Below, piece after piece: positions 9,887-50,140 of a stretch of DNA of 64,000 bases. The position numbers and the translations under genes were made by a program. Under the pieces are notes generated by a model. The model ran no database searches. It was not told the origin of the DNA and saw only the letters and a list, made by a program, of their open reading frames with translations. Numbering within the stretch: the first letter of the stretch is position 1; every line of letters begins with the position of its first letter. This DNA is from an uncultured delta proteobacterium (GTDB lineage Bacteria > Myxococcota > Myxococcia > Myxococcales > 40CM-4-68-19): positions 62,001 through 126,000 of the forward strand of contig CAIWCD010000030.1 in the NCBI GenBank assembly GCA_903911145.1, in the 5' to 3' direction.

Positions 9887-10004
9887 TAGAGCACATCTCA
9901 TAACCTCGGACCGAGCCATTTCGGCGGGCGAGGGCCAAGCAACGCCGCGATGCGCCCTGCCATCGCCCTGCCGGGCGACGGGAGAGGTTATGAGATGTGC
10001 TCTA
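9887..10004. mobile_element. MITE-like palindromic element with TA flanks
   Basis: Perfect 19-bp terminal inverted repeats (GAGCACATCTCATAACCTC at 9889-9907 and its complement at 9984-10002) enclose 76 bp without coding potential. Each end is flanked by TA (9887-9888 and 10003-10004), as expected for a TA target duplication of the kind made by IS630/Tc1-type or some IS5-group transposases. No transposase lies inside. The inner part can itself fold through GC-rich segments. The right end abuts the SDR gene, whose TAG stop is read from the terminal bases. Confidence 0.65.
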
Positions 10005-17637: not shown

Positions 17638-19662
17638 GTGACCCTCCTTCGCGCAGCAGACCTGCATCTGGCATTCGGCGTCCGTGTCCTCTTCGAGAAG
17701 CTCGAGTTCGTCATCGAGGAGAATGAGCGGGTGGGCCTGATCGGCGTGAACGGCTCGGGCAAGTCGACGCTGATGAAGATCCTCGCGGGCGCGATGAAGC
17801 CGGACTCTGGCGAGATCCAGATCCAGCGCGGCGCGACCGTGACGTACCTGCCGCAGGAGCCGCATTTTCCCGCGGGCGCGACAGTGGCCTCGGAGCTGTC
17901 GGTCGCGAATCTCAAGCTGCGCGCGGCCGTCAGCGCACATGAGGCGCTCTCCAAGAGGCTCGAGACGTTTCAGGGCACGCCTGACGAGCACGACAAGCTG
18001 CTCCTGCAGATGGGCAAGCTCGCCGAGGACGTCGACGCGCACGGCGGCTGGGACACCGAGCACGAGGCGAAGACGCTGCTCGACAAGCTCGGCGTGCACG
18101 AGTGGGAGCGGCAGATCGGAGAGCTCTCGGGCGGTTTGCGCAAGCGGGTGGCGGTCGCGCGCGCGCTGCTGTCGCGGCCGGATCTGCTGCTGCTCGACGA
18201 GCCGACGAACCATCTCGACGCCGATACGACCGACTGGCTCGAGGGCGAGCTCGATGATCTCCCGGGCGCGCTGCTGCTCGTCACGCACGATCGCTACTTC
18301 CTCGACGATCTCGTCGATCGGATCGTCGAGGTGCAGCCGGGCGGCGCGCTCACGAGCTATCCGGGCAACTACGAGGCCTATCTCTTCCAGAAGGCGATCG
18401 AGGCGGAGCAGCGCGCGATTGGCCAGCACAAGCGCGAGCGCTGGATCGACCAGGAGGTCGCGTGGCTGCGGCGCGGGCCGCAGGCGAGGCGCACAAAGAG
18501 CAAGGCGCGCATCCAGCGGGCGCGCGCGCTGATGGAGGAGCAGGGTTACGTCGCGCCGAAGGAGGCCGCGCTGCAGATCGCGTCGGCGCCGCGGCTGTCG
18601 GGGACGGTGCTCGAGTGCGAGAACGTCTTCAAGTCGTACGGCGAGCGGAGCGTCCTGCGCGATGTGAGCCTGATTGTGCAGAAGGGCGATCGGCTCGGCG
18701 TCGTGGGGAAGAATGGCGTGGGCAAGACGACGCTCCTGCGCACGCTGCTCGGCGAGATGCCGCCTGATTCGGGCAAGGTCGTCGTCGGCAAAGGCACGCG
18801 CGTCGCCTATTACGACCAGCAGCGCGCGCAGCTCGATCCGGAGGAGACCGTCTACGAATCGGCCTCGGGCGAGGAGTTCGTCGACATCGGCGGCCGTCGC
18901 ATGGCGCTGCGCGAATACCTCGAGGATCTGCTCTTTCCCGTCCCGATGCAGCGGATGAAAGTGGGCGCGCTCTCGGGCGGCGAGCGCAATCGCCTGCTGC
19001 TCGCACGGCTCTTTCTGCAGAAGGCCAATCTGCTCGTGCTCGACGAGCCCACGAACGATCTCGATCTCGTCACGCTCAATGTGCTCGAGCGGTTGCTGAT
19101 GGAGTTTCAGGGCGCGGTGCTGCTCGTGACGCACGATCGATACTTCCTCGACAAGGTCGCGACCGCGATTCTCGCGCTCGAGGGAGATGGCAGCGCGATT
19201 CGATATCCGGGCAATTACGATTCCTATCGAACGCTCAAGGCGCAGAGCGAAAAGGCCGCCAAAGACGTGCGCAACGAGGCCGCGCGCGTGCAGAAGGCCG
19301 ACGCGAAAGAGGCAGCGCGGATCGACGCGGGCGGCTCTCCGCGATCGCTCCCGACCGCGCCAGGAGCGGGACAGCGCATTCCGGGGCAAGGCAGCGGTGC
19401 GAACAAGCCGGCACCGAAACCGGTGAAGCTCTCCTTCAAGCAGCAGAAGGAGTTGGAAGGAATGGAGGCGCTGATCGAGCAGGCCGAAGAGCGGCGCGTG
19501 GCGGCCGAAGCGGCGCTGGTGGATCCGGCGAATCTCTCCGGGCCGCGCGTGGCGCAGCTTCCCGCGCTGCAGGCGGCGCATGATGCGATTGCGAGTGAGA
19601 TCGAGAAGCTCTATGCGCGGTGGCAGGAACTTCAAGATCTGGCTGCGGGGAAGAGCGCGTAG
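17638..19662 (+). CDS. uup: ABC-F family ATPase, Uup-type
   Basis: GTG 17638 is the likely start (TTG 17629 also possible). About 674 residues contain two ABC domains: Walker A GVNGSGKST (~40), signature ELSGGLRKR, Walker B LLLLDEPTNHLD; then GKNGVGKTT, ALSGGERNR, LLVLDEPTNDLD, each followed by LVTHDRYFLD. There is no membrane domain. A charged inter-domain linker (RRGPQARRTKSKARIQRA) and a C-terminal coiled coil (residues ~560-674, KQQKELEGMEALIEQAEERR) are features of Uup. ABC-F proteins act on the ribosome; Uup affects ribosome assembly, translation and transposon excision, and its coiled coil binds DNA. Confidence 0.88.
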   Translation: MTLLRAADLHLAFGVRVLFEKLEFVIEENERVGLIGVNGSGKSTLMKILAGAMKPDSGEIQIQRGATVTYLPQEPHFPAGATVASELSVANLKLRAAVSAHEALSKRLETFQGTPDEHDKLLLQMGKLAEDVDAHGGWDTEHEAKTLLDKLGVHEWERQIGELSGGLRKRVAVARALLSRPDLLLLDEPTNHLDADTTDWLEGELDDLPGALLLVTHDRYFLDDLVDRIVEVQPGGALTSYPGNYEAYLFQKAIEAEQRAIGQHKRERWIDQEVAWLRRGPQARRTKSKARIQRARALMEEQGYVAPKEAALQIASAPRLSGTVLECENVFKSYGERSVLRDVSLIVQKGDRLGVVGKNGVGKTTLLRTLLGEMPPDSGKVVVGKGTRVAYYDQQRAQLDPEETVYESASGEEFVDIGGRRMALREYLEDLLFPVPMQRMKVGALSGGERNRLLLARLFLQKANLLVLDEPTNDLDLVTLNVLERLLMEFQGAVLLVTHDRYFLDKVATAILALEGDGSAIRYPGNYDSYRTLKAQSEKAAKDVRNEAARVQKADAKEAARIDAGGSPRSLPTAPGAGQRIPGQGSGANKPAPKPVKLSFKQQKELEGMEALIEQAEERRVAAEAALVDPANLSGPRVAQLPALQAAHDAIASEIEKLYARWQELQDLAAGKSA

Positions 19663-19991: not shown

Positions 19992-20552
19992 TCAATTTGT
20001 CGAGAGTGCGCGGAGGAGCTTCTTCGCTCCCGGCGCGGCGAAGCCTGCGGCCTTGCGCGGCGCAAACGCGCCGAAGACGAACGAGCCGACGATGTACGCG
20101 AGCACGGCGCTGGCATTGCGCGTGGTGAGGCGGCCCTTCGCGCGGCGCTCGAGCGAAAGCACTTCCGCGTCGAGCAGGCGGCGCATCTTCTCGAAGAGCA
20201 GCGGGTCGGAGAGCGCTTCGGCGAAGACGGCCATCCAGGCGCGGGCGGCGATCGTGTCGCTCGATTCATCGAGAGCGAGCGCGGCATCGGCGTAGGCCTC
20301 GAGTGGATCTTCCTTGCGCGTCGTGGCGCGGGCATCGATGCGATGTCGAAAGCCCGCGATGAGCTGTTCGAGCAGCGCGCTGTAGAGATCCTGCTTGTCG
20401 GCAAAGTTGTGATGGACGAGGCCCGGAGCGACGCCGGCCTCCTCGGCGATGGCCGCGATCGTTGCGCCGGCTTGCCCGTGGCGGGCGAGCACGCGCGCGA
20501 AGGCGACGGTGATCTCGTGGCGGCGGAGGGTGCGCAGGCTGGGACGGGACAT
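19992..20552 (-). CDS. TetR-family transcriptional repressor
   Basis: It starts at ATG 20552 (MSRPSLRTLRRHEI); 186 residues. Residues ~10-55 are a TetR HTH (ITVAFARVLARHGQAGATI, AIAEEAGVAPGLVHHNFADKQDLYSALL), with the helix-3 pattern of the BetI-like group. The rest is the all-helical ligand/dimer domain. A 44-bp palindrome covers its own start codon, so autorepression is likely. The same core palindrome occurs upstream of the gene at 22264. The divergent VOC gene at 20636 is the obvious first target. Ligand unknown. Confidence 0.9.
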   Translation of the reverse strand: MSRPSLRTLRRHEITVAFARVLARHGQAGATIAAIAEEAGVAPGLVHHNFADKQDLYSALLEQLIAGFRHRIDARATTRKEDPLEAYADAALALDESSDTIAARAWMAVFAEALSDPLLFEKMRRLLDAEVLSLERRAKGRLTTRNASAVLAYIVGSFVFGAFAPRKAAGFAAPGAKKLLRALSTN

Positions 20553-20585
20553 AGATTGGTTGTACACCCAATCTATGTCCCGTCC
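20542..20585. promoter_or_regulatory. 44-bp palindromic operator, probable TetR site
   Basis: Two perfect 18-bp arms (GGACGGGACATAGATTGG at 20542-20559 and its complement at 20568-20585) surround TTGTACAC. The core ATAGATTGG-8 bp-CCAATCTAT overlaps the tetR start codon and lies about 50 bp before the divergent VOC gene, the classic position for a TetR operator controlling both. Confidence 0.75.
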
Positions 20586-43897: not shown

Positions 43898-44542
43898 ATG
43901 CACGGAGACATGGACATCGTCGACCCGCTGATCGCCGAGTTTCTCACGCAACTCGCGCCCTCGCCCGATCCTGTCGAGGCGGAGATGCGGCGGCACGCCG
44001 ATGAGCTCGAGGGCTATCCGATCGCGGGCCCGCTCGTCGGCGCGCTCCTCACGCAGCTCACTCTGATGCAGGGGGCACGCCGCGTCTTCGAGGTCGGCTC
44101 GGGCTTCGGCTACTCGGCGTTCTGGCTCGCGCGCGGACTGGGTGCGGGCGGCACGGTCAGCTTGAGCGAGGTCGATCGCGATCAACTCGAGCGCGCGCAC
44201 GACTATCTGGCCCGCGCGGGATTCTCCAATCGCTGCCTCTTCGAGCCGGCCGGCGACGGACTCGTCGCGCTCGAGCGGTGCGAGCCGGGCCTCGATCTGA
44301 TCTTTCTCGACTACGCGAAATCGGACTACCCGCGCGCGCTCGCGGTCGCGCTGCCCAAGCTGCGCCACGGCGGCATCCTCGTCGCCAACGACGTGCTCTG
44401 GGGCGGCTCGGTCGCGCGCGGAGAGCAGGACAAGGAGTCGGTGGGGTTGCGCGAATTCTTGCGCGTCATCCACGGTTCGGAGGGGCTGGTCTCGACGGTG
44501 CTGCCGCTCGGTGGCGGTGTCTCGATCACGTGGAAGCGGTAG
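43898..44542 (+). CDS. SAM-dependent O-methyltransferase (caffeoyl-CoA/COMT-like)
   Basis: It starts at ATG 43898 (MHGDMDIVDPL; ATG 43910 is possible); 214 residues. It is a class I methyltransferase with EGYPIAGPLVGALLTQL, motif I VFEVGSGFGYSAFWLARGL, SLSEVDRDQL, and motif IV DLIFLDYAKSDYPRAL, ending PLGGGVSITWKR. It resembles the small cation-dependent O-methyltransferase group, whose acceptor is a catechol or similar hydroxyl. The acceptor is unknown. Five bases after the stop begins the palindromic element at 44547. Confidence 0.87.
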   Translation: MHGDMDIVDPLIAEFLTQLAPSPDPVEAEMRRHADELEGYPIAGPLVGALLTQLTLMQGARRVFEVGSGFGYSAFWLARGLGAGGTVSLSEVDRDQLERAHDYLARAGFSNRCLFEPAGDGLVALERCEPGLDLIFLDYAKSDYPRALAVALPKLRHGGILVANDVLWGGSVARGEQDKESVGLREFLRVIHGSEGLVSTVLPLGGGVSITWKR

Positions 44543-44546
44543 TGCG

Positions 44547-44677
44547 CCGCGCGGCACCGAGGTCGCTGGCCGTGCTCAAACATGCATCCGCGGCCGGCCT
44601 GACTGCGCGCTCCGATTCGGAGTGGGGAGGGGCCGCTCCTGAACTGCGCGCGGCCAGCGACCTCGGCTGCCGCGCGG
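44547..44677 (+). repeat. Structured palindromic element, copy A (directly after a stop codon)
   Basis: It is 131 nt long with a 26-bp stem. CCGCGCGGCA (44547-44556), CCGA, and GGTCGCTGGCCG (44561-44572) pair with CGGCCAGCGACC (44651-44662), TCGG, a bulged C at 44667, and TGCCGCGCGG (44668-44677). The loop has a GCGGCC/GGCCGC inner pairing and a CTCCGATTCGGAG hairpin. Copy B (47808-47929, minus) shares the loop blocks but a different, still-paired inner stem. It could be a REP/RAYT-like palindrome or a 3' UTR RNA. Confidence 0.85.
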
Positions 44678-44741
44678 CTTATCCGGGCAACGGCGCAGCG
44701 AGATTCGGTGCGTGGTCGCAAGCGCTCTTGGGTGCGTGCTG

Positions 44742-45845
44742 ATGTCGGGCGAGCGTGCTGCGGGCCTTGATGGGAGCGGGGTTGCGCTCGATGCGGCTTT
44801 GATCAAAGCCCGCGCGCGCGAGCTTGGATTTGATCTCTGCGGGATCGCGAAGGTGCGCGCGCTCGAGCGGGCGTCGTTCGATCGTTGGTATGCCAATGAT
44901 TGGGACGCGCGGCTTGCGTATATGCGAGCGCGCATTGAAGAGCGGCTCGATCCTCGGCTGGTGCTCTCGGGTGCAGAGAGTGTGATCGTGGTGGCGGCGA
45001 GCTATGGGCCTTCGCGCGATGAAACGCTCTCGACCGCTCCCAGTGCGGGCGAGATGCTTTCGGTCGCTCGATATGCGCAGGGGCGCGACTATCACAACGT
45101 GCTGCTCAAGCGGGTGCGCAAGCTCGCGGCGTGGATGCGCGAGATGGGCGCGCGGGTCTATGCCGAGGTCGATACGGGCGCGGTCGCGGAGAAGGCGTGG
45201 GCAATGGAGTCGGGGCTGGGCTGGATCGGGAAGAACGGGCTGCTCATCCACGAGAAGTTCGGCTCGTGGCTGCTGCTCGGCGCGCTCGTCACCGATCTCG
45301 TTCTCGACGCCGATGCGCGACATCCCGATCGCTGCGGCGAGTGCAGTGCCTGCATTCCCGCCTGTCCGACGAACGCGATTCAAGAGGGGCGGCTGGTCGA
45401 TTCGAATCGCTGTCTGGCATTCCACACCATCGAGACGCGCGCGCCGATCCCGCGCGAGCTGGCCACCAGAGCGGGTGGGCGCGTCTTCGGCTGCGACGCC
45501 TGCCAGGATGCCTGCCCGTGGAATCGCCGCGCGCGAGAGGGGACGCTCGTCGAGCTTCGTGCGCGCCCGCGGCAGAAGGTGCTCGCGCTCGAGGATGTGC
45601 TGGCGTTCACGGATGCCTCGGTGCGCGCCGATTACGTGGGTACGCCGTTGATGCGCGCGCAGCGCGATGGGCTTGTGCGCGCCGCGCTCGCTGTGTGCAA
45701 GAGGCCGCTTACGGGACGCGTGCGCGAGCTGGCGACGACGCTGCTTGAAGATTCGTGCGCGGCGATTCGCGAAGAGGCGCAGCGCGCGCTGGAGGATGAT
45801 GCCGCCACCACCGGGAGCCCACCGCATGCAGCTACGAAATCATGA
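44742..45845 (+). CDS. queG: Epoxyqueuosine reductase
   Basis: It starts at ATG 44742 (MSGERAAGL); 367 residues. Features: LGFDLCGIAKV, YARGxDYH-type block (VARYAQGRDYHN), GWIGKNGLLIHEKFGSW, and two 4Fe-4S clusters from CGECSACIPACP and CDACQDACPWN plus CLAFH. QueG uses cobalamin and iron-sulfur clusters to reduce epoxyqueuosine to queuosine in tRNA anticodons. The C-terminal HEAT-like part (~300-370) is the tRNA-binding region. The start is ~65 nt downstream of copy A. Confidence 0.93.
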   Translation: MSGERAAGLDGSGVALDAALIKARARELGFDLCGIAKVRALERASFDRWYANDWDARLAYMRARIEERLDPRLVLSGAESVIVVAASYGPSRDETLSTAPSAGEMLSVARYAQGRDYHNVLLKRVRKLAAWMREMGARVYAEVDTGAVAEKAWAMESGLGWIGKNGLLIHEKFGSWLLLGALVTDLVLDADARHPDRCGECSACIPACPTNAIQEGRLVDSNRCLAFHTIETRAPIPRELATRAGGRVFGCDACQDACPWNRRAREGTLVELRARPRQKVLALEDVLAFTDASVRADYVGTPLMRAQRDGLVRAALAVCKRPLTGRVRELATTLLEDSCAAIREEAQRALEDDAATTGSPPHAATKS

Positions 45846-45885
45846 CCACCTGGTCACAAAGCGCGCAGCCCGAAGTCTCGTCTGG

Positions 45886-46134
45886 ATGCACGAGAGAGTT
45901 CTCCTCATCGCCACCGTCGCCGCGCTCTCCTCCTGCGCCGCGCTCAACACGTCATCGATGACGCCCGCGTGTCGCGAGAGCTACGATCAGTGCCTCGACG
46001 CCTGTCCTCGCGAGCCGCTGCGGGACACGCAAGCGGAGGGGCTCGAGCAGTCGCGTCACGGAATCGAACCCATGTATGTCGAGGCCGCGAGCTGCACGGA
46101 TGCCTGCAATCGCAGCGGGCGTGCGTGCCACTGA
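45886..46134 (+). CDS. Small cysteine-rich lipoprotein
   Basis: It starts at ATG 45886; 82 residues. Signal MHERVLLIATVAALSSC gives lipobox ALSSC at ~residue 17. The short mature part holds six further cysteines arranged like two paired loops (CRESYDQCLDAC ... CTDACNRSGRAC), typical of small surface lipoproteins. Function unknown. It is 41 bp downstream of queG on the same strand and convergent with the M23 peptidase gene. Confidence 0.6.
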   Translation: MHERVLLIATVAALSSCAALNTSSMTPACRESYDQCLDACPREPLRDTQAEGLEQSRHGIEPMYVEAASCTDACNRSGRACH

Positions 46135-46158
46135 CGGTGAGGCGCGCTGTCGAAGCGT

Positions 46159-46187
46159 GCGGGCGCTGTTCAAGCTCCGACGCCCGC
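46159..46187. terminator. GC hairpin between convergent genes
   Basis: GCGGGCG (46159-46165) pairs with CGCCCGC (46181-46187) over a 15-nt loop, within the 67-bp gap separating two convergent stops. It may serve as a shared terminator. No T-run. Confidence 0.4.
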
Positions 46188-46201
46188 TGTGCGGCTCATC
46201 C

Positions 46202-47182
46202 TCACGGCGTCGCGTCGGCTCCAGTCAGTTTCGTCCCCGTGATCGGCCAGCTCAATCCGGTCTTCTTCCCATCGGCGATCACGTCGTGAAACTTCGCAGG
46301 CAGCCCGTGCGAGGTCGCCATGCGCGGCGAATCGGCGAGCTGAAAATGCAGATGCGGCTCGGTCGTGCTCCCCGAGTTGCCGATGCGCGCGAGCGGCGCT
46401 CCCGCCTTCACGCGATCGCCTTTCTTCACGACCATCGAGCCGGGAATGAGATGGCAGTAGGTTGCAAATTCGCCGTTGCCTAAGTCGAGCACGACGATAT
46501 TGCCCGGCACGAAATACTGGTCCTCCTCGCCGACGCTCGTGTTCTCGGGAATCCCATCCACGACCGTGACGACGGTGCCATCCGCCGCCGCGAGAGCCTG
46601 CTGGCCATAGGCGAAATAGTCGCTGAGCGACTTGCCATCCCCTCTGTGCGTCGAGCCCTGCTCGTCGATGATCAACCAATCCACCGCGAATCGCTGCGAC
46701 GCAATCGCGTAGTGCGGATTGCTCGAACTCCGATCTGCATTGAGCGCAGTCCACGTGCCGCGAAAGGGCGGACGCAGCCGCGCTTTCGTCTCGTCGTTGT
46801 CGTGCGCCGTCTTGGAAACGACGGTGTCCGGATCAGTCGCAGGCTTGATGAACAGACCCGCGATGCGGCCCTCGTCGTCGAGCAACAACTCCAGCCGCTG
46901 CGCAGGGCCTTTCGCGAAATGCATCATGAGCGCCAGCGGGTGGGCCTTCGCGAGCAGCTCGACACTCGTGAGGGCGCCGCACTTCGCATGGACGCTGCGC
47001 ATGAGCTCCTTGACCTGTGAGAGCGAAACAGCCGCAGCCATCTGCGCATTGAAGCGCGCGGCGACAGCCTCTTCGCGCCCTTCGCCGAGGTCGTGCGCGA
47101 TCTGCAGCGCGGTCGCCTCGGGCGTCGCCGCGTGGAGTGCAGCGGGAGCGGCGAGGAGCAGTGCGAACAGGAAGGTCTTCAT
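46202..47182 (-). CDS. Periplasmic M23 (LytM-type) metallopeptidase with DUF3887-like N-domain
   Basis: The product has 326 residues. Signal peptide MKTFLFALLLAAPAALHAA, then residues ~25-120 a small alpha/beta domain resembling DUF3887 (ALQIAHDLGEGREEAVAARF). The C-terminal peptidase part has NPHYAIASQRFAVDW (zinc-ligand Asp in AVDW; His in NPHY), GNGEFATYCHLIPGS and EPHLHFQL (HLH zinc ligands). M23 enzymes cut glycine-rich peptide crosslinks of peptidoglycan. Expected in the periplasm, acting on the cell wall, possibly in predation or growth. Similar to proteins of the bacteroidete NxH...YAxD subgroup. Confidence 0.85.
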   Translation of the reverse strand: MKTFLFALLLAAPAALHAATPEATALQIAHDLGEGREEAVAARFNAQMAAAVSLSQVKELMRSVHAKCGALTSVELLAKAHPLALMMHFAKGPAQRLELLLDDEGRIAGLFIKPATDPDTVVSKTAHDNDETKARLRPPFRGTWTALNADRSSSNPHYAIASQRFAVDWLIIDEQGSTHRGDGKSLSDYFAYGQQALAAADGTVVTVVDGIPENTSVGEEDQYFVPGNIVVLDLGNGEFATYCHLIPGSMVVKKGDRVKAGAPLARIGNSGSTTEPHLHFQLADSPRMATSHGLPAKFHDVIADGKKTGLSWPITGTKLTGADATP

Positions 47183-47266
47183 CGGTTGTCCGATCTGAAA
47201 TGGTTGCCAAACACAACTAAAGAGCGACGCCGACGCTGGCGATCTGCCGGTGGATCGCGAATCGGA

Positions 47267-47314
47267 TCAGCGCCGCCACTCGCGCCACGCCAGCGTGAAG
47301 CTCTTGCGGATCAC
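47267..47314 (-). pseudogene. Short N-terminal remnant of an ABC-type permease (putative)
   Basis: Directly behind the gntR stop, a 15-codon run with perfect GC3 bias reads MIRKSFTLAWREWRR and then a stop (GTG start at 47314). This looks like the first residues of an ABC-2-type permease, the usual partner downstream of YtrA-type GntR genes. The rest of the gene is missing. Confidence 0.4.
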
Positions 47315-47340
47315 CGGGGCGGTGCGGACGTCAGAGAGAT

Positions 47341-47709
47341 TCAGACGAGCTCCTTCTGGATGAAGCGGATGAAGTCGGAGGCGGAGAGCTTCTGGCGCTT
47401 GCACTCCTGCAGCGCGACGGCGAGGACGCGGCGAAAGGCCCCCTCGCGGCGGTCTTGGGGAACTTTCTTCGCGAGCGGAAACGTCCCGCGCCCGCGCTCC
47501 GAGCGGATATGCCCCGCGCGCTCCAGCTCCCGGTAGGCGCGGATCACCGTGTTCGGATTGATGTCCAACTCCGCCGCGAGCCCGTGGATCGTCGGCAGCT
47601 GATCCTCCGGCCCGAGCTGGTTCGCTGCGAGAGCCGCGAGAATCGCCTCGTAGATCTGCCGGTAGACCGGAACGCCGGAGTCGTAGTTGAGCGTGATGTC
47701 GAGAGCCAT
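47341..47709 (-). CDS. GntR-family repressor, YtrA subfamily
   Basis: The product has 122 residues. N-terminal winged helix (GVPVYRQIYEAILAALAANQLG, QLPTIHGLAAELDINPNTVIRAYRELERAG, RGRGTF), with the short C-terminal helix tail (~45 residues) characteristic of YtrA. YtrA proteins repress their own operon, which normally includes an ABC transporter. Here only a fragment follows. An 18-bp palindrome lies 15 nt upstream of the start, the expected operator. Confidence 0.9.
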   Translation of the reverse strand: MALDITLNYDSGVPVYRQIYEAILAALAANQLGPEDQLPTIHGLAAELDINPNTVIRAYRELERAGHIRSERGRGTFPLAKKVPQDRREGAFRRVLAVALQECKRQKLSASDFIRFIQKELV

Positions 47710-47724
47710 ATTGAGGAAGCCATA

Positions 47725-47742
47725 TATCTAGTTAACTAGATA
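47725..47742. promoter_or_regulatory. Palindromic operator of the YtrA-type GntR
   Basis: Perfect 18-bp palindrome TATCTAGTTAACTAGATA, 15 bp upstream of the gntR start. The AGTTAACT core is typical of YtrA-type sites, so autorepression is expected. Confidence 0.7.
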
Positions 47743-47807
47743 ATTCAAGACGAAGAGGAGCGGACCCTCCCTCATCGAGTCTCGCCGCGCAGTTGCTCGG
47801 CTACAGA

Positions 47808-47929
47808 GCGCGGCAGCCGATGCTTCTGCCCGCGCGCAGTTCAGAAGCGGCCGCAACCATCTCCGCAGCAAGCACGAACGCCGGCCGCGGATGCATGTTT
47901 GAGCACGGGCAGAAGCATCGGTGCCGCGC
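47808..47929 (-). repeat. Structured palindromic element, copy B
   Basis: It is 122 nt on the minus strand, with a 24-bp stem and one bulge. On the plus strand, GCGCGGCA (47808-47815), CCGA (47817-47820) and TGCTTCTGCCCG (47821-47832) pair with CGGGCAGAAGCA (47906-47917), TCGG and TGCCGCGC (47922-47929). In element sense it matches copy A in both loop blocks but has five compensatory changes in the inner stem. It sits downstream of hlyIII on the same strand. Confidence 0.85.
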
Positions 47930-47938
47930 GACCCACAC

Positions 47939-47976
47939 GCATGTTTGAGCACGGGCAGAAGCACCGGTGCCGCGCG
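47939..47976 (-). repeat. Tandem half copy of the palindromic element
   Basis: These 38 bases repeat 47893-47930 with one mismatch (GCATGTTTGAGCACGGGCAG ... GCC GCGCG), i.e. the 5' arm and first loop block of the element in minus-strand sense. It starts three bases after the hlyIII stop. It probably arose by partial duplication, or is the leftover of a second element. Confidence 0.9.
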
Positions 47977-47979
47977 GCT

Positions 47980-48651
47980 CTAACGAACGATGAGCCCCGC
48001 GACCGCGACGAAGTGGCAGGTGGTCGCGGCGATCACGAGGAGATGAAAGATCTCGTGGAAGCCAAACACGCGCGTGAAGGGGTCCGGCCTGCGCGCCGCA
48101 TACACCAGCGCGCCGAGCGTGTAGAGGGCGCCGCCGCCGATCACCAGGCCCACGCCGCGCGCGCCGGCGAGTCGGTAGAGCGCGGGGACAGCCGGCAGCA
48201 CGAACCATCCGAGCGCGACGTAGAGCGCGCTTCGCGTCTTCTTCCCCACGGTGTCGGGCCTCACCACGATGAAGATCCCAAACAGTGCCCCGAGCCAGAG
48301 CGCGACAAGGGCGACACGGCCGGTGAGTTCAGCGATGGCGAGGCCAAACGGCGTGAAGGTGCCGGCGATGAGGACGAAGATCGCGGCGTGATCGATTCGG
48401 CCGAGCCAGGTGCGCTGCGGCTCGGGCCAATGGAGGCGGTGATAGAGGGTGCTGGTGGAGAAGAGGATGAGCACCGACGCGCCGTAGATCGCGCAGCCGA
48501 GGAGCGATGCGGTCGCACGCGCGGACCAGACGAGCCAGCCGACGGCGGGGAACAAGGCGAGCAGCGCAAGTTGGTGCGAGACGCCGCGCAGCAGTGGCTT
48601 CACGCGGGCTCCGAGGTCGACTCCCCCGTCGATCGAGTTCATCGCAGTCAT
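47980..48651 (-). CDS. Hemolysin III / YqfA (PAQR-type) membrane protein
   Basis: It starts at ATG 48651 (MTAMNSIDGG); 223 residues with seven membrane helices. Family motifs: STLYHRLHWPE, DHAAIFVLIAGTFTPF, and the C-terminal GFHEIFHLLVIAATTCHF. These three (SxxxH, DH, HExxH-like HEIFH) are the zinc-site residues of PAQR/hemolysin III proteins, possibly hydrolases of ceramide-like lipids; the bacterial role is unclear. It begins eight bases after the rsmB stop, forming one transcript. Confidence 0.9.
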   Translation of the reverse strand: MTAMNSIDGGVDLGARVKPLLRGVSHQLALLALFPAVGWLVWSARATASLLGCAIYGASVLILFSTSTLYHRLHWPEPQRTWLGRIDHAAIFVLIAGTFTPFGLAIAELTGRVALVALWLGALFGIFIVVRPDTVGKKTRSALYVALGWFVLPAVPALYRLAGARGVGLVIGGGALYTLGALVYAARRPDPFTRVFGFHEIFHLLVIAATTCHFVAVAGLIVR

Positions 48652-48658
48652 TGCCCCG

Positions 48659-50140
48659 CTACCCCTTGCGCCGCAGACCCGCGATGTAGAAGCCGTCTGT
48701 CCCGTGCCGCTGCGGCAACAGCTGCACATCGAGCCGCTTCTCGGCGCTCGGCTTGCGTCCACCCGACTGCGTCGCCAGATCGTTCGATGATGCTCCCGAC
48801 CGCTCTGCGCGCGGCTCCGCGCCATTCTCGACCGCCGGCTTGAAGCCGCTCTTCGGACCCTCCGGCGGAATCAGCGCCGCACTCATCAGGCCCGCGATGC
48901 GCTCTCTTCCGAGCAGTTCGTCGGGATCGATCGCCTCGAATTCGCTGTGGCCCGCGAGGAAATGCGCGCGCACCTCTTCGTTCTCGCGCTGGTTGATCGA
49001 GCAGGTCGCGTAGACGAGCCGGCCGCCGGGCCGCACGAGCGTCGCGTAGCGCTCGAGGATCTCCTTCTGCCTCGGCGGGAAGAGATCGGCCTCGGCCTCG
49101 TCGAGTCGCCAGCGCGCGTCGGGATTGCGCCGGAGCGCTCCGAGTCCGCTGCAGGGCGCATCGATCAGCACGACGTCTGCTTTGCCGACGAGATCGGAAA
49201 TTCGCGCGAGGCCATTCGCACCTTCGGCCACCGTGCGCGCCTCCCAGTTGTGCACGCCCGCGCGTCGCGCTCGCGTTTTCAGCTCGAGCAGGCGGCGCCC
49301 ATCGCGATCGCACGCGACCAGCTTTCCCTTGTTCTGCATCTGCGCCGCGAGCGCGAGCGTCTTGCCTCCCGCGCCCGCGCAGGCATCGACGACCAGCTGT
49401 CCGGGCCTTGCAGCGCAGGCCTCCGCGATCAATTGGCTCCCCTCGTCCTGCACCTCGAAGAGCCCGGCCTTGAAGGCCTTGAGCGCGAAGACGTTGGTGC
49501 GCGAGGTGAACGTGAGCGCGAGATCCGACCAGCGCGTCGCGGCCACGCGCGCATCTTCATCGGCCAGTTTTCCCTCGAGAGCAGCGCGATCAGCCTTGAG
49601 CGTATTGGTCCGGATGGTGAGCGGTGCACGCTGGTTGATCGCGGCTGCGAGCGCACGTGTCTCATCTGCTCCGAGCTGCGCGCTCCAGAGCGCCGCGAGC
49701 CAGCGCGGAAGACTCGTTTCGCTTGCAAGCGACGAGAGCGGATCGTCGCCGGTCGGCGCGAGCTTGGCCGGCGCCGCGAGCAGTTCGAGAGTCCAGGCAT
49801 GCGCGCGCACTTCGGGCCCTGCGAGATTCGCCGCGCTCTCGGCGCTCTGTTCGCCCGAGACAACGAGATAGCCCGCGTAGCGCAGGAGGTGCTGGGTCGG
49901 CGTCGCGAGAGATGTCAGCGCCTGGCCCTTGGTGGCCAGTGCCCGCCCGAGCAGATTGTCGACGCGGCCTTGCAGACGCAGCAGCCCATAGACCGCGTCG
50001 GCCACCGCGCGACGCTCCACCGAGCGCAGCTGCTTCTCCCTCCGGATCACGCGCGCCATCGCTTGATCCGCGCGCGCTCCCTCTCGCCGCACCTGCTCAT
50101 AGATCTCGAGGACGGCGCTGCGGACGAGTTCGGCTCTCAT
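48659..50140 (-). CDS. rsmB: 16S rRNA m5C967 methyltransferase (RsmB/NOP2 family)
   Basis: The product has 493 residues. N-terminal NusB-like RNA-binding domain (residues ~1-150). The catalytic domain has VVDACAGAGGKTLALAAQM, VACDRDGRRL, motif IV VVLIDAPCSGLGALRRNPD with the first Cys, and YATCSINQRENEEV with the catalytic Cys (motif VI). It methylates C5 of C967 in 16S rRNA, or a close relative. The C-terminal part has an extra ~35-residue linker (ENGAEPRAERSGASSND). It heads the rsmB-hlyIII transcript. Confidence 0.9.
   Translation of the reverse strand: MRAELVRSAVLEIYEQVRREGARADQAMARVIRREKQLRSVERRAVADAVYGLLRLQGRVDNLLGRALATKGQALTSLATPTQHLLRYAGYLVVSGEQSAESAANLAGPEVRAHAWTLELLAAPAKLAPTGDDPLSSLASETSLPRWLAALWSAQLGADETRALAAAINQRAPLTIRTNTLKADRAALEGKLADEDARVAATRWSDLALTFTSRTNVFALKAFKAGLFEVQDEGSQLIAEACAARPGQLVVDACAGAGGKTLALAAQMQNKGKLVACDRDGRRLLELKTRARRAGVHNWEARTVAEGANGLARISDLVGKADVVLIDAPCSGLGALRRNPDARWRLDEAEADLFPPRQKEILERYATLVRPGGRLVYATCSINQRENEEVRAHFLAGHSEFEAIDPDELLGRERIAGLMSAALIPPEGPKSGFKPAVENGAEPRAERSGASSNDLATQSGGRKPSAEKRLDVQLLPQRHGTDGFYIAGLRRKG

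Follow-up and report, generated by a model that had tools for sequence, protein, structure and literature searches.

In the genome of an uncultured myxobacterium, a family of dispersed palindromic elements lies mostly directly behind the stop codons of mutually unrelated genes. Its copies carry an almost invariant internal loop between arms whose sequence differs from copy to copy and whose pairing is kept. The favoured explanation, which is considered somewhat probable, is that of a non-autonomous dispersed repeat that resides behind stop codons and whose arms are kept paired by copying at the DNA level. The element was met in a window of 64,000 nucleotides (contig C30, positions 62001-126000) of G000, a 5.3-Mb draft genome. 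An earlier note on this window had described two copies, A and B, that share their loop blocks and differ in five fully compensated stem pairs, and both are present as described. The dispersed palindromic family with covarying stems that it supposed is confirmed and is larger, with 33 full copies and additional fragments in the genome.

Size of the family

A nucleotide search of G000 gave 39 matches to the element. A covariance model, by which the note had proposed to collect the copies, was built from 16 of them and then run on the genome; it recovered 33 full copies and one internally deleted copy, with E-values to 1e-32. Most of its weaker matches are these palindromes again, detected on the opposite strand. 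The element is thus a dispersed multi-copy palindrome of the 100-200 bp class. Among the partial copies, L098 retains the left half and L099 the right half, and L097 has lost an internal segment between two GTGCTC repeats. Inverted dimers are found at C39:141958+/142177-, C31:97729+/97947- and C12:18766+/19045-. The copy number, the E-values of the model and the covariation measured against controls (see below) together place the element far above chance.

No Rfam family matches the element at or above its gathering threshold, and the sub-threshold miRNA matches reflect the chance similarity of long hairpins. Viral contigs contain no match with the core pattern and phages none to the element, and the one weak match, on a Sinorhizobium plasmid, lacks the core; a phage or plasmid origin was therefore rejected.

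Structure of the hairpin

Each copy forms a hairpin of about 130 bp: variable arms of about 27 bp enclose an internal loop and an inner stem, and a short tail follows. The base of the left arm, GCCGCGGGGCA, is partly conserved and its inner part is variable; the arms close with the block GTGC/GCGC, which includes a conserved T·G pair. The internal loop, CTCRRACATGCA / CTGAACT, is almost invariant across copies, as are the core strands to which it belongs (TCRRACATGCATCC on the 5' side and TCCTGAACT on the 3' side). The inner stem, GCGGC/GCCGC, carries a variable apex. Alignment of the sequence behind the hairpin in 33 copies shows that most of them also have a partly conserved tail on the 3' side (consensus CTTGGWCCGGACRAAAAG), a component absent from the earlier note. 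The features of the two window copies are listed in Table 1.

Table 1. Hairpin features of the two copies in the window (window coordinates) and hairpins of the second type elsewhere in G000 (locus coordinates)
Feature	Position	Strand	Remark
TAG stop of O-methyltransferase gene	44540..44542	+	Copy A directly behind; absent from the earlier note
Copy A, left arm: outer GCCGCGCGGCA, inner variable CCGAGGTCGCTGGCC, closing GTGC	44546..44575	+	
Copy A, 5' core strand of internal loop, TCAAACATGCATCC	44576..44589	+	Near-invariant in the alignment
Copy A, inner stem GCGGCC/GGCCGC with variable apical part	44590..44636	+	
Copy A, 3' core strand, TCCTGAACTGC	44637..44647	+	Near-invariant in the alignment
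Copy A, right arm	44648..44678	+	
Copy A, tail	44679..44700	+	Diverged form of CTTGGWCCGGACRAAAAG; tail alignment, 33 copies
Copy B, hairpin	47808..47929	-	Core strands 47889-47902 and 47838-47847
Tandem duplicate of copy B left arm and 5' core strand, 46-nt period	47939..47978 (to 47984)	-	Adjoins the stop; absent from the earlier note
TAG stop of hemolysin-III-like gene 47980-48825	47980..47982	-	Duplicated arm of copy B directly behind; absent from the earlier note
Second-type hairpins	L100 ~648 and ~988; L107 6000; L115 2004; L156 12274; L159 773; L160 1020		

A second 46-nt tandem duplication of the left arm occurs at the copy at G000:C12:18766 (about 18720-18790). Both duplications stop at one and the same core position (CATGC or CATGCA), possibly a point of breakage or processing.

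At least seven hairpins of a second, shorter type are present in the same genome. They have variable paired arms, the closing blocks CCGTGCTCG / GCTGCGCGCGG and a plain inner hairpin, and they contain no core loop; at least the one at L160 bears the main-family tail GACCGGAC. The window also holds a perfect inverted repeat of 21 bp, TAGAGCACATCTCATAACCTC, whose halves are 76 nt apart (9887-10004) and which is unrelated to the family, and a 20-bp hairpin, GGACGGGACATAGATTGGTT (20542-20585). A word similar to the latter, GGGACACATAGATT, stands in tandem beside two element copies of a related genome, G007 (L091, L093).

Position behind stop codons

A stop codon in the sense orientation marks the start of 26 of the 33 copies, for 24 of them directly, i.e., within 6 nt of the in-frame stop of a coding-like open reading frame, and for two via a duplicated left arm; one of the 24 (L014) follows a reading frame of only 60 codons that is weakly coding-like. 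A non-coding strand position satisfies this definition by chance at a rate of 3.3%, as measured in 313 kb, so that 24 such copies correspond to a p of about 1e-28. The stops ahead of the copies are TAG, TGA or TAA, with TAG enriched (20/26 versus 102/232, or 44%, of stops; p=0.0007). The upstream genes are mutually unrelated and include what we take from their translations to be rho, infA, dksA, mreB, recN and the gene for UDP-glucose dehydrogenase. Among the remaining copies, at least four have on their other side, at a distance of 36-58 nt, the end of a gene to which they are antisense, and several adjoin the 5' region of a divergent gene.

Gain in this lineage and occurrence in other genomes

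The orthologues of rho in ten relatives and of the O-methyltransferase gene in eight, members of the same genus included, terminate at the same codon or close to it, mostly with TAG, and have no element behind them. The copies at these genes were thus gained in this lineage. Moreover, since most of the element-free orthologues already end in TAG, the stop codons are older than the insertions, and the idea that the element supplies the stop was rejected. At the two orthologous sites, the intergenic DNA is too diverged to be aligned and to fix the ends of the element or a target-site duplication. The relatives are too distant to define a duplication or an exact empty site, and the element is therefore apparently mobile as judged from presence and absence.

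Three relatives contain the same core between arms of unrelated sequence, and a single further instance, likewise behind a stop, was found in a distant bacterium of low GC content. In particular, G001, of the same genus, carries a variant with constant GGGGGAGGGG arms beside the loop, and ten and seven copies were found in G007 (MAG JAIVGS01) and G011 (MAG VBLM01), respectively. The copies in the latter two genomes are often arranged as inverted pairs with conserved linkers and mostly lie 7-56 nt downstream of stop codons. Among about 85,000 species genomes searched with the exact pattern, the only other real match is that of the low-GC bacterium (L205, JAIELP010000005), whose genome holds one copy. 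This copy lies between two convergent genes, immediately after a TAA stop, and combines the core of the family with AT-rich arms and an inner T-rich hairpin that resembles a terminator. All remaining non-myxobacterial pattern matches lack flanking stems and were dismissed as chance, as was a match in G467.

Compensatory changes in the arms

In an alignment of 30 copies, 95.3% of the pairs are standard, and two-sided arm changes occupy 176 cells in 22 pairs; two-sided cells in the controls stood at 47 for shuffles and 23-43 for slid controls. The covariation score was 0.487, versus 0.131 in shuffles and less than 0.1 in slid controls. Since the variable helices show only some six or seven wobble changes confined to one side, nearly all arm changes are two-sided. 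When the two arms of each of the 33 copies were aligned with each other (about 890 pairs in total), 838 Watson-Crick pairs were obtained, along with 7 G·T and 15 A·C mismatches.

Selection on an RNA should prefer G·U over A·C. The stems of ten tRNAs of G000 have six wobble pairs and no A·C pair, and the contrast with the element arms, although based on 22 arm mismatches and these ten tRNAs only, is significant (Fisher p=0.005). As G·U is not preferred over A·C in the arms, copying of one arm at the DNA level is favoured over selection on RNA, and it is at this level that the pairing of the arms appears to be restored. Quasipalindrome correction is well established in bacteria. Template switching is a documented process that creates compensatory changes at the DNA level in one step (PMC8794818). 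The earlier note had taken the compensated pairs as the hallmark of a selected secondary structure: the compensation itself is upheld, but it counts for less as proof that an RNA is selected, because wobble pairs do not exceed A·C pairs and because template switching can give rise to such a pattern without selection (PMC8794818).

The main alternative, less probable and still to be taken seriously, is a structured 3'-untranslated RNA whose loop is bound by a protein or ribonuclease, so that the upstream mRNA is protected or processed while the stems drift under selection for pairing. It would account for the sense orientation behind stop codons, which extends to other genera and to the distant bacterium, for the near-invariance of the loop and for the very strong covariation. 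Apart from the wobble test, however, it is opposed by the near-perfection of the arms, given that so stable a hairpin should tolerate single mismatches, by the antisense copies, by the orthologous genes that manage without the element and by the lack of an Rfam match.

Other explanations

The earlier note had also raised a REP-like palindrome with an associated RAYT gene. The placement at stop codons does resemble that of REP- and YPAL-type repeats, and a REP/REPIN repeat moved by a RAYT (Y1) transposase would likewise be palindromic, dispersed, near stops and arranged in inverted dimers, as seen here in G000, G007 and G011; moreover, GTAG-type REPs often provide a TAG stop (PMC3733652). The RAYT part found no support. 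Although the carrier relatives possess Y1 genes (4 in G001, 21 in G007, 13 in G011 and 2 in G147; the G007 and G011 loci are among L228-L267), no Y1 transposase gene (Y1_Tnp, PF01797) was found in G000, the genome richest in copies, and no copy lies less than 2.2 kb from any of the 40 Y1 loci of the carriers (on shorter contigs, none lies on the contig at all), in a scan that recovers known copies as a positive control. In addition, the unit is not the short 20-40 bp of a REP but a hairpin three to four times as long with an internal loop, and it bears no GTAG or CGTC tag of its own, the TAG being already present in element-free orthologues. A RAYT-driven origin was therefore rejected as very improbable, and no mobilising gene was found.

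About equally improbable is a transcription terminator, possibly Rho-related or bidirectional. The location behind stops and between convergent genes and the T-rich inner hairpin of the L205 copy speak for it. The earlier note had considered an "unusual terminator". In G000, however, the hairpin is followed not by a T-run but by the A-rich tail GACCGGACRAAAAG, and the dksA copy (L116) is succeeded by a normal intrinsic terminator of its own; the element is thus not a standard intrinsic terminator. Few genes carry it, and termination needs no invariant internal loop.

The weakest explanation, that the core segment enters the loops of 3' hairpins already in place and the arms are host sequence, would suit one core-less hairpin with the family tail behind a stop (L116 7079-7111), but is hardly tenable, as the outer arm and tail are common to the copies, no second core-less hairpin with this arm or tail was found in 0.94 Mb and, when the whole genome was searched for the tail, none of the other close matches was of this kind, which leaves a single core-less relative detected. 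This hairpin (GCTGAGGACCACCG/CGGTGGTCCTCAGC, minus strand) lies behind a TGA stop, has the exact family tail TTGAACCGGACGAAAAG and is convergent to the dksA copy; it may have arisen by deletion or may represent a precursor.

Proposed mode of maintenance and its significance

According to the favoured explanation, that of a dispersed repeat with DNA-level copying of its arms, copies would settle directly behind stop codons and thereby provide the upstream gene with a hairpin in its 3' untranslated region, presumably transcribed with it. The invariant loop would most likely be the recognition site of a putative mobilising or binding factor, and the arms would need only to pair, their sequence being otherwise free. 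The near-perfect pairing is proposed to persist through copying of one arm onto the other, either by template switching in the hairpin or by self-primed copying during spread. Against this explanation, the strong sense orientation behind stops, in other genera too, could indicate a selected 3'-untranslated function, and neutral drift of the arms by copying still needs either selection or recent spread to account for the near-invariance of the loop.

A more far-reaching proposal, offered tentatively and judged rather unlikely, is that the family represents a wide-ranging new class of elements, in which a single loop is set between arbitrary stems, the hairpin is recognised as DNA or RNA by a putative factor, copies lie behind stop codons in unrelated bacteria, and the arms are rewritten as mutual copies at the DNA level.

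The family provides a natural test of whether compensatory changes in stems prove selection on RNA. Since one genome holds 33 copies with a common loop, differing arms and almost no wobble intermediates, DNA-level copying of arms becomes directly testable; it would caution against the discovery of RNAs from covariation alone. Should the loop serve as a handle for a mobiliser, the family would point to a mobile-element system that targets the 3' ends of genes without a RAYT.

Comparison with known systems

By description, and not by membership, the element is best compared with YPAL and ERIC, and its life style is also similar to that of REP/BIME. REP, BIME and REPIN repeats are likewise palindromes near stop codons that form inverted dimers, but REPs are 20-40 bp long, have GTAG/CGTC tags and come with a Y1 transposase (PMC3733652), whereas the present element has about 130 bp, no tag of its own and no linked Y1 gene. 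Hairpins maintained by template switching similarly acquire compensatory changes in one DNA-level step (PMC8794818); they have been described for rRNA and other RNA genes rather than for a dispersed repeat family.

ERIC (IRU) is a dispersed imperfect palindrome of 127 bp, close in these respects to the element, and is co-transcribed with its neighbours (PMC2229807). Compared by description, ERIC ends in TA and bears terminal inverted repeats of 7 bp, while the element has long variable arms and no TA ends. YPAL/RU-2, a dispersed intergenic palindrome of about 168 bp, is similar as well: its target sites lie beside or span dyad symmetries, filled and empty sites are known, and it may affect the stability of upstream transcripts (PMC2229807). 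YPAL, as known from Yersinia and Erwinia, is nevertheless described as a conserved sequence, whereas in the element, again as judged from descriptions, the arms vary with their pairing kept and only the loop is fixed.
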